Shown: in pieces, positions 41,431 to 46,443 of the stretch
How the letters are laid out: each line of letters opens with the position of its first letter
Position numbering within the stretch: the first letter of the stretch is position 1
Assembly (NCBI RefSeq): GCF_002286985.1
Contig: NZ_NSKC01000003.1
Coordinates: 1 to 64,000, forward strand
Direction: 5' to 3'
Length of the DNA: 64,000 nucleotides
Source of the DNA: Halorubrum salipaludis
GTDB lineage: Archaea > Halobacteriota > Halobacteria > Halobacteriales > Haloferacaceae
Program-made: the position numbers and the translations under genes
The notes under the pieces: model-generated
What the model was told of the DNA's origin: nothing
Seen by the model: the letters and a program-made list of their open reading frames with translations, nothing else
The model's database searches: none

Positions 41431-42285
41431 TCAGTCGTCGGCCGGCGCCGCGCCGCCGCGGGAGGCCGAACCGAGTCCCGAAGCCATGTCGGCGACCGTG
41501 CGCTCGTTGCTCGCGACCCACCGCAACAGGAGGAACGCGAAGAGGTACTTCGCGACGATGTCCATCCCGCTGTAGGCCCACGAGGTGATGGCGATGTCGA
41601 GCACCGCGAAGCCCTCGGCGCCGAGCGCCCAGACGATCGGGTAGCCGAGCCACAGGACGACGGTGAGGATCTTCAGCGTGTTGAAGATCTCGGCGGTGCC
41701 GGCGACCTCGGCGTCCTGAGCCCACTCGGCGAGCAGGATGTACAGGACGACGACGAAGAACGCGCAGCTGATGCCGTACCAGACCCAGCGCAGCATGTAG
41801 GAGGACGTGGTCAGCGCGGCCGCGAGGCCCGTGACGCACATCCCGATGTCGGCCGTGACGGCCGTGAACAGCTTCGTCGCGTTCGATCCGGCGAGCAGGC
41901 CGAGCGCGATGAGGATCATCGGCGTCGACAGCGCCCACGTGAGATACCGCCCCCACGGGGTGAGCACTTCCTGCCCCGCCAACGCGTGCCCGGCCGGCAT
42001 CTCGAGGAAGCTTACCGTCAGCCCGGAGACGAGCCCGGTGTAACTCGAGATGGACACCAGCGGCACCATCAGCGTGGCGACGAAAATCAGCTGCGCGCGG
42101 GGATCCTCCACGTTCCGACCCATATACACGAACAGGAGGATCGACAGGCCCGCGAGGGCGATGTTGATCCAGAGCGACGCGGCCAGCAGCCCGTCGCTCT
42201 GGATGGCCTGGAAAATCTCGGCTTGAGTCATTTCGAGCGGGACGGTTCCGCTTGCGATCAGGTCAGCCGTTGCTGTTTCGATCAT
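41431..42285 (-). CDS. hop: Halorhodopsin (light-driven chloride pump)
   Basis: A 284-residue seven-helix retinal protein. The helix C motif GRYLTWALSTPMILIALGLL gives Thr116-Ser120-Ala127 in place of the Asp-Thr-Asp of bacteriorhodopsin, which marks a chloride pump. The Schiff-base Lys246 and counterion Asp242 sit in SGMDIVAKYLFAFLLL. The BC loop (PAGHALAGQEVLTPW) resembles Halobacterium halorhodopsin. The gene stands alone and is preceded by a Bat-type UAS and a bop-like TTTAC TATA element. The C-terminus ends in a short polar tail. Confidence 0.93.
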   Translation of the reverse strand: MIETATADLIASGTVPLEMTQAEIFQAIQSDGLLAASLWINIALAGLSILLFVYMGRNVEDPRAQLIFVATLMVPLVSISSYTGLVSGLTVSFLEMPAGHALAGQEVLTPWGRYLTWALSTPMILIALGLLAGSNATKLFTAVTADIGMCVTGLAAALTTSSYMLRWVWYGISCAFFVVVLYILLAEWAQDAEVAGTAEIFNTLKILTVVLWLGYPIVWALGAEGFAVLDIAITSWAYSGMDIVAKYLFAFLLLRWVASNERTVADMASGLGSASRGGAAPADD

Positions 42286-42326
42286 TCGACACCTATCGGT
42301 ACGAGAGGAACCGGGTAAACGGTACC

Positions 42327-42342
42327 ACCCAACTAGTTGGGT
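42327..42342 (-). promoter_or_regulatory. Bat-type UAS upstream of hop
   Basis: ACCCAACTAGTTGGGT, a perfect 16-bp palindrome. It fits the Bat-dependent UAS consensus described for Halobacterium bop-region genes (ACC-N2-ACTAGTT-type core). Its centre is about 49 nt upstream of the start codon. TTTACC (42314-42319, minus strand) lies at the expected TATA position and resembles the non-canonical bop TATA box. Confidence 0.7.
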
Positions 42343-42563: not shown

Positions 42564-42989
42564 ATGTACCGCAGACGGTTCCTCCGACGGGTCGGCGCGG
42601 CCGGGGGCCTGGCGGCGACGACCGCCCTCGCCGGCTGTTCGGCGGTCGGGGGCGACCCCGGCTACGACGTGGGAATGGTCGCTGACGCGTATCGGCCGGC
42701 GGAGCTGACCGTCTCCGTCGGCGACACCGTCGTCTGGGAGAACACGAGCGCGCGGGCCCACACCGTCACCGCCTACGAGAGCGCGATCCCGGACGCGGCC
42801 GACTACTTCGCCTCCGGCGGCTTCGACGACGAGCTGACCGCCCGCGAGGCGTGGCACGACGACTTCGGCGGCATCTTGGAAAGCGGGGACCGCTTCTCCC
42901 ACACGTTCGAGGTCCCCGGCCGCCACGACTACGTGTGCATCCCCCACGAGACCGGGGGGATGGTCGGAACCGTCGTCGTGGAGGAGTGA
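42564..42989 (+). CDS. Halocyanin-type blue copper protein
   Basis: A 141-residue secreted cupredoxin. The N-terminus MYRRRFLRRVGAAGGLAATT and lipobox LAGC (Cys26) give a Tat lipoprotein. The copper ligands are visible: His in SARAHTVTAY, then Cys-His-Met in YVCIPHETGGMVG. It likely carries electrons to a terminal oxidase or denitrification enzyme. It precedes a SafE-like protein and a copper ATPase, forming a copper-handling group. Confidence 0.88.
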   Translation: MYRRRFLRRVGAAGGLAATTALAGCSAVGGDPGYDVGMVADAYRPAELTVSVGDTVVWENTSARAHTVTAYESAIPDAADYFASGGFDDELTAREAWHDDFGGILESGDRFSHTFEVPGRHDYVCIPHETGGMVGTVVVEE

Positions 42990-43097
42990 CGTGGGGGGTT
43001 CCCGATCCCACCGCTTCCTCCTCCGGCTCGACCGCTCGCTCCCCGGCCCGACGAAACCCATTAGCGCGCGCGACCCCTACCACGGGTGACTCGACTC

Positions 43098-43943
43098 ATG
43101 GACCTCTCGCCGCTTCTCGGGACCGACGTCCTGCTGTTCCTCGCCATCGGGCTGCTCGGCGGCGCCCACTGCATCGGGATGTGCGGCCCGCTCGTCACGG
43201 TGTACGCCGGCCGGATGCGCGACGGAAGCGAACGCGCCGACGGCGGGGGAGCGGCCGGCGGGGCCGCCGCCGGAACCGGCCGGTCCGCCGACCGGCGCGG
43301 GAGCCACCTCACGACCTACGAGGTCCGCCAGCACGCGCTGTTCAACCTCGGCCGCGCGGCGAGCTACGCGACAATCGGCGCGGCGCTCGGCGCGCTCGGC
43401 GGGGCCCTCCTCGTCACGACTGCGACGCTGACCGGCGCGGCGGAGGCGGTCCGCGGCGCCGTCGGCCTCGTCGTCGGCGCGGCCGTGATCGTCGTCGGCG
43501 TCCGGTACGCGCTCGGCGGCGCGACCGGCGGGGTCCACCTCCCCGGCCTCGACCGCGTCACCGGGTGGCTCACCGGGCACGTCGACCGGCTCGCCAACGG
43601 GCCCGGGATCGTCGGGCTCGGCGCGGTCCACGGGCTGCTCCCGTGTCCGATCCTCTACCCGGCGTACCTCTACGCGTTCGCCAGCGGCTCCGCCGTCAGC
43701 GGCGCGCTCGCGCTCGGCGCGCTCGGCGTCGGGACGATGCCGGCCGTCTTCCTCTACGGCACGGTCATCGAGAGCGTCGACGCGGTCCATCGCCGCCGGG
43801 TCCACCGCCTGCTCGGCGTCGCCTTCGTGGCGCTCGGCTACGTCCTGTTCGCGCACGGGTTGATGGCGGTCGGCGTCCACGTGCCGCACCCGAGCCTCCC
43901 GTTCTGGAACCCGCTCGACGCGGCCGCCGCGGGGGGAATGTGA
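43098..43943 (+). CDS. Sulfite exporter TauE/SafE-family membrane protein
   Basis: A 281-residue membrane protein with about six hydrophobic segments. The signature FLAIGLLGGAHCIGMCGPLV is typical of the group that includes CcoH/DsbD-like maturation proteins. A second conserved stretch is LGAVHGLLPCPILYPAYLYA. It lies 1 nt upstream of a copper P-type ATPase, an arrangement known from cytochrome-oxidase maturation operons, so a copper or heme-copper oxidase assembly role is likely. A GTG 12 nt earlier could also start it. Confidence 0.75.
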   Translation: MDLSPLLGTDVLLFLAIGLLGGAHCIGMCGPLVTVYAGRMRDGSERADGGGAAGGAAAGTGRSADRRGSHLTTYEVRQHALFNLGRAASYATIGAALGALGGALLVTTATLTGAAEAVRGAVGLVVGAAVIVVGVRYALGGATGGVHLPGLDRVTGWLTGHVDRLANGPGIVGLGAVHGLLPCPILYPAYLYAFASGSAVSGALALGALGVGTMPAVFLYGTVIESVDAVHRRRVHRLLGVAFVALGYVLFAHGLMAVGVHVPHPSLPFWNPLDAAAAGGM

Positions 43944-43944
43944 G

Positions 43945-46443
43945 ATGAGCGCGCCCGACTGCACCCTCTGTGAGCTCCCGACCGCCGGCGTCGACGTGGT
44001 CGACGACGAGGGCAACGCGTTCTGCTGTACCGGCTGTCGAGACGTGTACGAGTCGCTCGGCGACGTCGATGTCGACGCGGAGGCGGTTCGCGAGCGGCGG
44101 CAGGGGGAGGGAGACGATTCCGCCGACGCACAGGTCCCAGCCGGCCACGAGGCGACCTTCCTCGAGGTCGACGGGATGCACTGCGCCACCTGCGAGGCGT
44201 TCATCGAGACGGTCGCCACGCGGACCGAGGGAGTCAGCGCCGCCAGCGCGAGCTACGTCACGGACACGGTGCGGATCGACCACGACCCCGATGCGGTCTC
44301 CGCGGACGACCTCTCGGAGGCGGTGAGCGGGCTCGGCTACAGCGCGTACGACCGCGACGACGCCTTCTCCCGCCGGCAGGCGGACAACATGGCGACGGCG
44401 CGGCTCGCGGCGGGGGTCATGGTCGGGATGGCGGTCATGTTACAGTACATCGTCATCATCTACCCGACGTACTTCGCGTTCCCCTTCTACAACGAGCGCA
44501 CGCTGGAGTACCTCAACCAGGCGATGTCGTCGACCTCCGGGACGTACTTCTTCATCGTGATCGGCGTGTTGACGACGCTCGTGCTGTTCGTCACCGGGAA
44601 GCCGATACTCAGGGGCGCGTACGTCAGCGCGCGGACGCGGTCGCCGAACATGGACTTACTCGTCGCGATCGCGGCGCTCAGCGCGTACGTCTACAGCACC
44701 CTCGCCGTGATCTTCGTCGAGTCGCCGTCGATCTACTACGACGTGACGGTCGCGATCATCGTGATCGTCACCGTCGGGAACCATTACGAGGACTCGATAA
44801 AGAAGCGCGCGACCGAGCTGCTCTCCGATCTCACCGCGGTCCAGGTCGACAGCGCCCGGCGGATCGTCGGCGTCGACGCGGCGGGAGCAGAAGGGAACGG
44901 CGGCGAGGCTGAGGGGAACGGCATCGAGACTGAAGAAGTCGCCATCGAGGACCTCGCGCCCGGCGACCGCCTGCTCGTGCGCGCCGGCGAGCGCGTCCCG
45001 GTCGACGGCGAGGCGGTCGCGGGCGACGCCGCGGTCGACGAGTCGGTCGTCACGGGCGAGTCGATGCCGGTCCGGAAGGCGCCGGGAGACGCCGTGGTCG
45101 GCGGCTCCGTGGTCGCGGACGGGTCGCTGACGGTGGAGGTCGGCCCGGACGCGACCTCCAGCCTCGACCGCGTCGCCGAGCTCGTCTGGGACCTCCAGAG
45201 CGGGAACCACGGCGTCCAGAAGCTCGCCGACCGGCTGGCGACGGTGTTCGTTCCGGTCGTGCTCGCGGTCGCGCTCCTCGCCGCGGGGGCCAACCTCGCG
45301 CTTGGCAACGGGGTGACCGAGGCGATGCTCGTCGGGCTCACGGTGCTCATCGTCTCGTGTCCGTGCGCGCTCGGGCTCGCGACCCCGCTGGCGGTCGCCG
45401 CCGGAATCCGCGACGCCCTGGAGCGCTCCATCGTGATCTTCGACGACACCGTCTTCGAGCGCCTCCGGGGCGCCGACACCGTCGTCTTCGACAAGACCGG
45501 GACGCTCACCACCGGCGAGATGCGGGTCGTCTCCGCCGACGTCGACGACGACCTGCTCCGGCTCGCGGCGGCGGTCGAGGAGCGCTCGGCGCACCCCGTC
45601 GGGCGGGCCATCGCCGCGGCGCGGGCGGTCGCTGACGGCGGGACGGTCGAGGCGACGGAGGCGGTCGACGGATCGGACGCCGCCTCCCCCTCCGGCGACG
45701 CCCTCGCGGTCTCCGACTTCGAGAGCCACGCCCGCGGCGTCTCCGGCGTCGTCGACGGCGTTCCGGTCGTCGTCGGCCACCCGGACCTGTTCGACGAGCG
45801 CGGGTGGACGGTCCCCGAGTCGGTCCGCGAGGCGGTCGCGGCCGCCCGCGACGTGGGGCGCGTCCCGGTCGCCGTCGGCCGCGACGGCGCCGCGGAGGGG
45901 GTCGTCGTGGTCGGCGACGAGCTGCGCGAGGGGTGGGACGAGACCGTGACGGAGCTGGCCGACTCGGGCGTCGAGGTGGTCGTGCTGACCGGCGACGACG
46001 AGCGCGCGGCGACCGTCTTCGCCGAGCACGACGCGGTCTCGTCGGTGTTCGCGGGCGTGCCGCCGGAGGGGAAAGCCGAGACGGTCGAGCGGCTGAAGGC
46101 GCGCGGGCGGACGGTGATGGTCGGCGACGGGACCAACGACGCGCCGGCGCTCGCCGCGGCCGACCTCGGCGTCGCGCTCGGCGGCGGGACCGCCATGGCG
46201 GCCGACGCCGCCGACGTGGCGATCGTCGACGACGACCTCGGCTCCGTGGCCACCGTCTTCGAGCTCTCGCGGGCCGCGGGGCGGCGCGTGAAGGGGAACA
46301 TCGGCTGGGCGTTCTGCTACAACGCGGTCGCGATCCCGCTCGCGGTGACGGGCCTCCTCAACCCCCTCTTCGCCGCGGTCGCGATGGGCGCCTCCAGCCT
46401 GCTCGTCGTGACGAACTCCTCGCGGGCGCTGTTGGACGACTGA
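43945..46443 (+). CDS. Copper-transporting P1B-type ATPase
   Basis: An 832-residue metal pump. The N-terminus carries a Cys-rich segment (CTLCELPTAGVDVVDDEG, then FCCTGCRDVYESLG), followed by an HMA domain with GMHCATCEAF. Eight membrane segments are expected, with the CPC transport motif in LIVSCPCALGLATPLAV. Catalytic motifs are DKTGTLTTGEM (phosphorylated Asp), TGES in VVTGESMPV, and MVGDGTNDAPALAAADLGV. The CPC plus the N-terminal Cys domain (CcoI/FixI-like) points to copper, possibly supplying cytochrome oxidase. Cotranscribed with the SafE-like gene. Confidence 0.92.
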   Translation: MSAPDCTLCELPTAGVDVVDDEGNAFCCTGCRDVYESLGDVDVDAEAVRERRQGEGDDSADAQVPAGHEATFLEVDGMHCATCEAFIETVATRTEGVSAASASYVTDTVRIDHDPDAVSADDLSEAVSGLGYSAYDRDDAFSRRQADNMATARLAAGVMVGMAVMLQYIVIIYPTYFAFPFYNERTLEYLNQAMSSTSGTYFFIVIGVLTTLVLFVTGKPILRGAYVSARTRSPNMDLLVAIAALSAYVYSTLAVIFVESPSIYYDVTVAIIVIVTVGNHYEDSIKKRATELLSDLTAVQVDSARRIVGVDAAGAEGNGGEAEGNGIETEEVAIEDLAPGDRLLVRAGERVPVDGEAVAGDAAVDESVVTGESMPVRKAPGDAVVGGSVVADGSLTVEVGPDATSSLDRVAELVWDLQSGNHGVQKLADRLATVFVPVVLAVALLAAGANLALGNGVTEAMLVGLTVLIVSCPCALGLATPLAVAAGIRDALERSIVIFDDTVFERLRGADTVVFDKTGTLTTGEMRVVSADVDDDLLRLAAAVEERSAHPVGRAIAAARAVADGGTVEATEAVDGSDAASPSGDALAVSDFESHARGVSGVVDGVPVVVGHPDLFDERGWTVPESVREAVAAARDVGRVPVAVGRDGAAEGVVVVGDELREGWDETVTELADSGVEVVVLTGDDERAATVFAEHDAVSSVFAGVPPEGKAETVERLKARGRTVMVGDGTNDAPALAAADLGVALGGGTAMAADAADVAIVDDDLGSVATVFELSRAAGRRVKGNIGWAFCYNAVAIPLAVTGLLNPLFAAVAMGASSLLVVTNSSRALLDD

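Follow-up and report, generated by a model that had tools for sequence, protein, structure and literature searches.

The Bat regulon has been called the best-studied regulon of Halobacterium, with proton-pump and retinal genes for members (PMC1502140). In H. salinarum it includes bop, brp, bat and crtB1. For the Halobacterium site homologous to the element described here, an activating role within a regulon that depends on light and oxygen has been reported (PMC1447603, PMC3184054), and the TATA element of Halobacterium bop deviates from the consensus (PMC1447603). Small co-regulators, Brz and Brb, have been described for H. salinarum, and in the same source Tarasov et al. (2011) did not exclude an activation of further opsin genes by Bat and these small proteins (PMC3184054). 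Genomes in which bop and bat are inserted among ATP synthase genes are known, as is bat without bop (PMC7755889). A proline-type Bat from a Halorubrum has been argued by Yee et al. to be a redox/light sensor (PMC4682037), and archaeal LOV-HTH proteins resembling Bat have been surveyed (PMC4844311). No report of a Bat site at the halorhodopsin gene hop was found in the titles and abstract openings searched; subscription papers fall mostly outside this scope and may already have one in print.

Here we analyse 64,000 nt of Halorubrum salipaludis DNA (the window; contig NZ_NSKC01000003.1, positions 1 to 64,000), in which hop is preceded by a perfect palindrome. Comparison with related genomes makes it probable, in our judgement with good confidence, that this palindrome is an activating site bound by the Bat-family activator encoded beside bop, that hop is transcribed with bop, and that the chloride pump belongs to the Bat regulon of the genus.

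The palindrome upstream of hop and its conservation

The hop gene occupies 41431..42285 of the minus strand, with the A of its ATG at 42285, and encodes a protein of 284 aa whose N-terminus is conserved in the genus. The product matches PF01036 at 2.8e-53 and scores 343-384 bits against four solved halorhodopsin sequences, compared with about 110 bits against bacteriorhodopsins; the nearest solved structure is halorhodopsin 3a7k (383.8 bits). This places it with the halorhodopsins and apart from proton pumps and sensors. A set of copper-type genes (42573-46443) runs divergently from hop and encodes a cupredoxin lipoprotein-like product, a DsbD_2 membrane protein and a heavy-metal P-type ATPase.

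Read on the minus strand, the putative palindromic UAS ACCCAACTAGTTGGGT (42327..42342) is followed by the 7-nt spacer GGTACCG (42320..42326), the TATA-type element TTTACC (42314..42319), 28 nt and the hop ATG. Direct reading bears out the perfect palindrome claimed in a preliminary description of this DNA, and the distance from its centre to the start codon, given there as about 49 nt, measures 49.5 nt. The 16-mer is present as a single copy in the 3,505,410 bases of the genome. The UAS-to-TATA gap of 7 nt recurs at the genome's own bop and at Halobacterium bop. At both types of gene the TATA element departs from the consensus, with TTTACC at hop in the window and TTAC or TTAG at bop; the earlier statement that TTTACC occurs as in bop is right for the position and the TTA core and less exact for the full element, which is TTACAC at Halobacterium bop and TTAGTA at the genome's own bop. 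When the hop promoters are aligned, the second conserved block (columns 24-27) falls on this element, in agreement with its presumed TATA function.

Could such a palindrome have arisen by chance, without any function? Palindromy is weak evidence when taken alone, because the window holds eight perfect 16-bp palindromes where 3.4 are expected from composition, even if the expectation for the 287-nt intergenic region by itself is 0.005. The likeness to the H. salinarum bop element, as read from its genome, is also weak alone because 12/16 identities, the value for ACCCAACTAGTTGGGT, are attained at three distinct places of the window. We therefore rejected both as sole evidence; the two arguments of the preliminary description are suggestive, not decisive. 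When the 7-nt gap and TTAC are added, the hop place becomes the single best in the 64 kb (14/20; next 13).

The decisive evidence is comparative. We collected hop promoters from 52 genomes of the genus, one per species, with start codons set by protein homology, which yielded the window's own hop and 43 others. The core NCCNNACNNGTNNGGT was found in all 44 of these promoters, 42 times exactly and twice with one mismatch, and its centre lay 49.5 nt before the ATG in 34 promoters, 48.5 nt in six and 50.5 nt in four. The remainder of these promoters, 31,180 positions with both strands counted, held no exact occurrence and only two with one mismatch. The second conserved block of these promoters is TTTA, usually 7 bases beyond the core. 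A scan of 68 loci from named genomes revealed a related element at a like position in 28 loci of Halorubrum and its nearest kin, one of them named Halobellus captivus and one a MAG named only Halobacteriales; this set overlaps the 44 promoters, with 27 of the 28 loci apparently common to both. Judged from these alignments, the site accompanies hop throughout the genus. Its retention at a fixed position in 44/44 promoters whose flanks have diverged speaks strongly against a chance palindrome, a reading we consider negligible, and the position-fixed conservation makes the putative site far more than chance.

The sister site at bop and the Bat protein of the genome

The genome encodes three opsin genes. 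At its own bop (C1:290997), ACCAAACCAGTTGTGT is centred 49.5 nt before the ATG, and the element stands at this same distance in ten of ten close bop homologues of the genus, this one included. The core is exact in one of the ten and has one mismatch in nine, the bop type being GTGT and the hop type GGGT. H. salinarum bop, read from the genome of the named strain, carries ACCATACTGATTGGGT-N7-TTACAC with its centre 46.5 nt before the ATG, and H. salinarum brp carries ACCCCACTAGCTTGGGT. The third opsin gene of the genome, of the sensory type, has no site in its promoter, and none was detected in 20 promoters of sensory opsins, a weak negative control as these genes seem to lie close behind another gene. 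Of 20 archaerhodopsin-type bop genes, ten have a diverged element, ACCTrACTrGGTTGGC, 48.5 nt before a script-chosen start; for those lacking it at that distance the script mostly took another start. Opsin matches of 57-82 bits were left outside this comparison of promoters.

The preliminary description named the lack of any bat gene in the full genome as an outcome that would speak against it. A Bat-type gene does exist, on another contig, directly upstream of bop and on the same strand (C1:289143-290867; L013:13144-14871), and the two lie between ATP synthase subunit genes. Its product of 575 aa has a PAS/LOV, GAF, BAT and HTH_10 architecture (Pfam PAS_9, GAF_2, BAT and HTH_10), and in H. salinarum it matches a single gene at E<=1e-25, the one that follows brp, i.e. 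Bat. That hop has no neighbouring bat gene was correctly noted, all BAT-family or Bat-like matches being off the window's contig. Together with this bat gene, the sister site at bop and the 44 hop promoters support the proposed reading of the palindrome as a UAS of the Bat regulon.

The LOV domain of this Bat, at residues of about 56-180, contains GRNCRFLQG with the canonical adduct cysteine. Among solved structures it is closest to LOV/blue-light receptors such as YtvA, to which NCBIfam also points, below the family cut-off. Out of 31 loci taken for comparison, 30 Bat proteins were inspected together and one (L138) was read apart. Within the 30, the position is a cysteine in the bop-linked type and in G029, a proline in the archaerhodopsin-linked type and a histidine in H. 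salinarum; L144 yielded no such motif. A cysteine-bearing LOV domain makes the old question of direct light sensing by Bat testable in a natural protein.

Distribution of the site, hop and Bat

Bat (E<=1e-60) was found in 44 of the 52 genomes of the genus and hop likewise in 44 of 52. Both are present in 43 genomes and neither in seven; one has hop only and one Bat only, and kinship of the species means that these figures overstate independence. The genome with hop only (G017) accounts for one of the two mismatched hop sites. The genome without hop (G036; L200, G036:C23:118000-132000) has a Bat 75% identical to that of the window genome, and neither bop nor hop was found in it. In the 15 genomes lacking bop, Bat is kept in 6/7 with hop and in 1/8 without hop (Fisher p 0.010, kinship ignored). 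Three of the six bop-less genomes with hop and Bat carry another opsin too. In one bop-less genome (G041; L199, G041:C13:318000-332000) hop is the only opsin match, and bat is divergent from it with 213 nt between the two ATGs.

Outside the genus, 39 hop loci were compared; four show the core within one mismatch at a suitable distance, and each of these four genomes has Bat. Among outside-genus genomes without the hop site, 15 of 33 searched gave a Bat-sized match and a sixteenth a partial match only (two further genomes were left out). As far as these genomes indicate, the site goes with Bat, and Bat does not imply a site at hop.

The type of site also appears to follow the type of Bat. In a protein tree of 30 hop rows, the window's hop lies inside a clade with good support, in which GTCAGGT-like sites without a cysteine-type Bat prevail among the other members, whereas the window genome combines a GTTGGGT site with a cysteine-type Bat. 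Over 29 rows, the right half of the site has TG at its two variable positions in 7/9 rows with a cysteine-type Bat and in 0/20 others, the latter including one row (L034) without a Bat assignment. About two of three well-supported pairs change in the same direction and none in the opposite one; the pairs are too few for significance. One genome (G016) has both Bat types and keeps a GTCAGGT site. We tentatively propose, at somewhat less than even confidence, that hop is a standing, ancient Bat target that keeps bat in bop-less species, and that in the lineage of this genome Bat has been exchanged for a type with a working blue-light LOV cysteine, with the hop site changing along (GTCAGGT to GTTGGGT), so that one photoreceptor transcription factor would give direct blue-light control of both ion pumps.

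The preliminary description also recommended a search for the palindrome at other genes. It brought up the bop element described above, whose centre is 49.5 nt from the ATG, and no second copy of the exact 16-mer. Total site counts over all mismatch classes show little excess (90 versus 77 for the reversed pattern), and another scan shows a modest one (53 versus 26). A wider regulon in this genome was considered and rejected. One pattern, with one mismatch allowed, listed 53 places; among the 30 that had loci, an ATG lies 49.5 nt from the site at bop and hop alone. From the 23 that had no loci, just the place before a brp/blh gene was inspected, and its 32.5 nt to an ATG is the wrong distance. 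The advice to look at brp brought no support in this genome, in which neither BCD (brp/blh) gene has the site in the geometry of hop and bop.

The composite RCCNNACNNGTNNGGT-N7-TTTA gave seven matches in seven of 119 genomes of the family, and the reversed control gave one. Five of the seven are at hop, in the window, G028, G042 and G048 by coordinates and in G093 by translation; the remaining two lie before a phytoene desaturase gene (G058) and at a place without gene assignment (G128). The pattern is strict and overlooks many hop sites already known in the genus, and its Halorubrum matches are not independent because it was built after the Halorubrum hop promoters had been seen. The composite in G058 (L268, G058:C11:1186932-1186958), a genome identified as Halobium salinum by shared Bat coordinates (L075), is centred 45.5 nt before the phytoene desaturase gene, and the genome's own hop has no site. 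This arrangement suggests that a carotenoid gene may belong to the Bat regulon there.

A probable shared switch for two ion pumps and its relation to known systems

The common site and distance at hop and bop suggest that one light- and oxygen-sensing regulator may turn on both pumps. The dyad suggests that the C-terminal HTH_10 domain of Bat would bind as a dimer; Bat would sit 7 nt upstream of the weak, non-consensus TATA element and recruit the basal factors, and hop would be transcribed alongside bop, as a nearly leaderless message. We infer Bat as the binding protein, activation as its effect and low oxygen and light as its signals. Counting against this reading, most hop genes outside the genus, Halobacterium's included, have no site, and the genome's brp/blh genes have none either, unlike H. 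salinarum brp.

The conserved activator site could be real and yet be bound by another HTH_10/BAT paralogue or by an unrelated dimeric regulator, with Bat controlling only bop. The genome offers candidates, as further BAT-domain proteins are encoded in it (six places in one search, and four matches to Bat at E<=1e-25 in another). We nevertheless regard this alternative as unlikely, since bop, which stands beside bat, has an equal core, distance and TATA gap, and TG-type sites such as GTTGGGT accompany only the cysteine-type Bat in the tree rows compared. A different proposal would make the site the target of a repressor, or of a factor answering to a cue other than light and oxygen, such as salt or chloride, that is common to both ion pumps. 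Osmotic control of a chloride pump is plausible, and sequence cannot separate activation from repression; the homologous Halobacterium site has nevertheless been reported as an activator within a light/oxygen regulon (PMC1447603, PMC3184054), and a place upstream of a weak TATA element fits activation, which leaves this proposal very improbable in our view.

If the preferred reading of a Bat-activated hop is right, the chloride pump would widen the regulon to light-driven ion transport generally. A role of hop as Bat target would also offer a reason for the persistence of bat in some bop-less genomes, a point left open in PMC7755889.

Overall, this is a known kind of system, in which hop as a putative regulon member is new; a general form of the idea dates from 2011. 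The Bat of this genome resembles in architecture both the Cys-less BAT-LOV (PMC4682037), whose proline type is that of the archaerhodopsin-linked Bats, and the archaeal LOV-HTH factors (PMC4844311), one arrangement of which resembles Bat. It differs from H. salinarum Bat, which has a histidine in place of the adduct cysteine. With the H. salinarum Bat UAS regulon the locus shares a related dyad with a 7-nt gap to a non-consensus TATA element, a site about 46-50 nt before the start codon and a Bat-type gene in the genome. Compared with H. salinarum bop, the site here is a perfect 16-bp palindrome and lies 49.5 nt rather than 46.5 nt from the ATG; compared with H. salinarum brp, the brp/blh genes of this genome are without a site in the hop/bop geometry. 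The principal difference concerns the target: hop carries no such site in H. salinarum, whereas in Halorubrum it is the gene that the conserved element would place under Bat.
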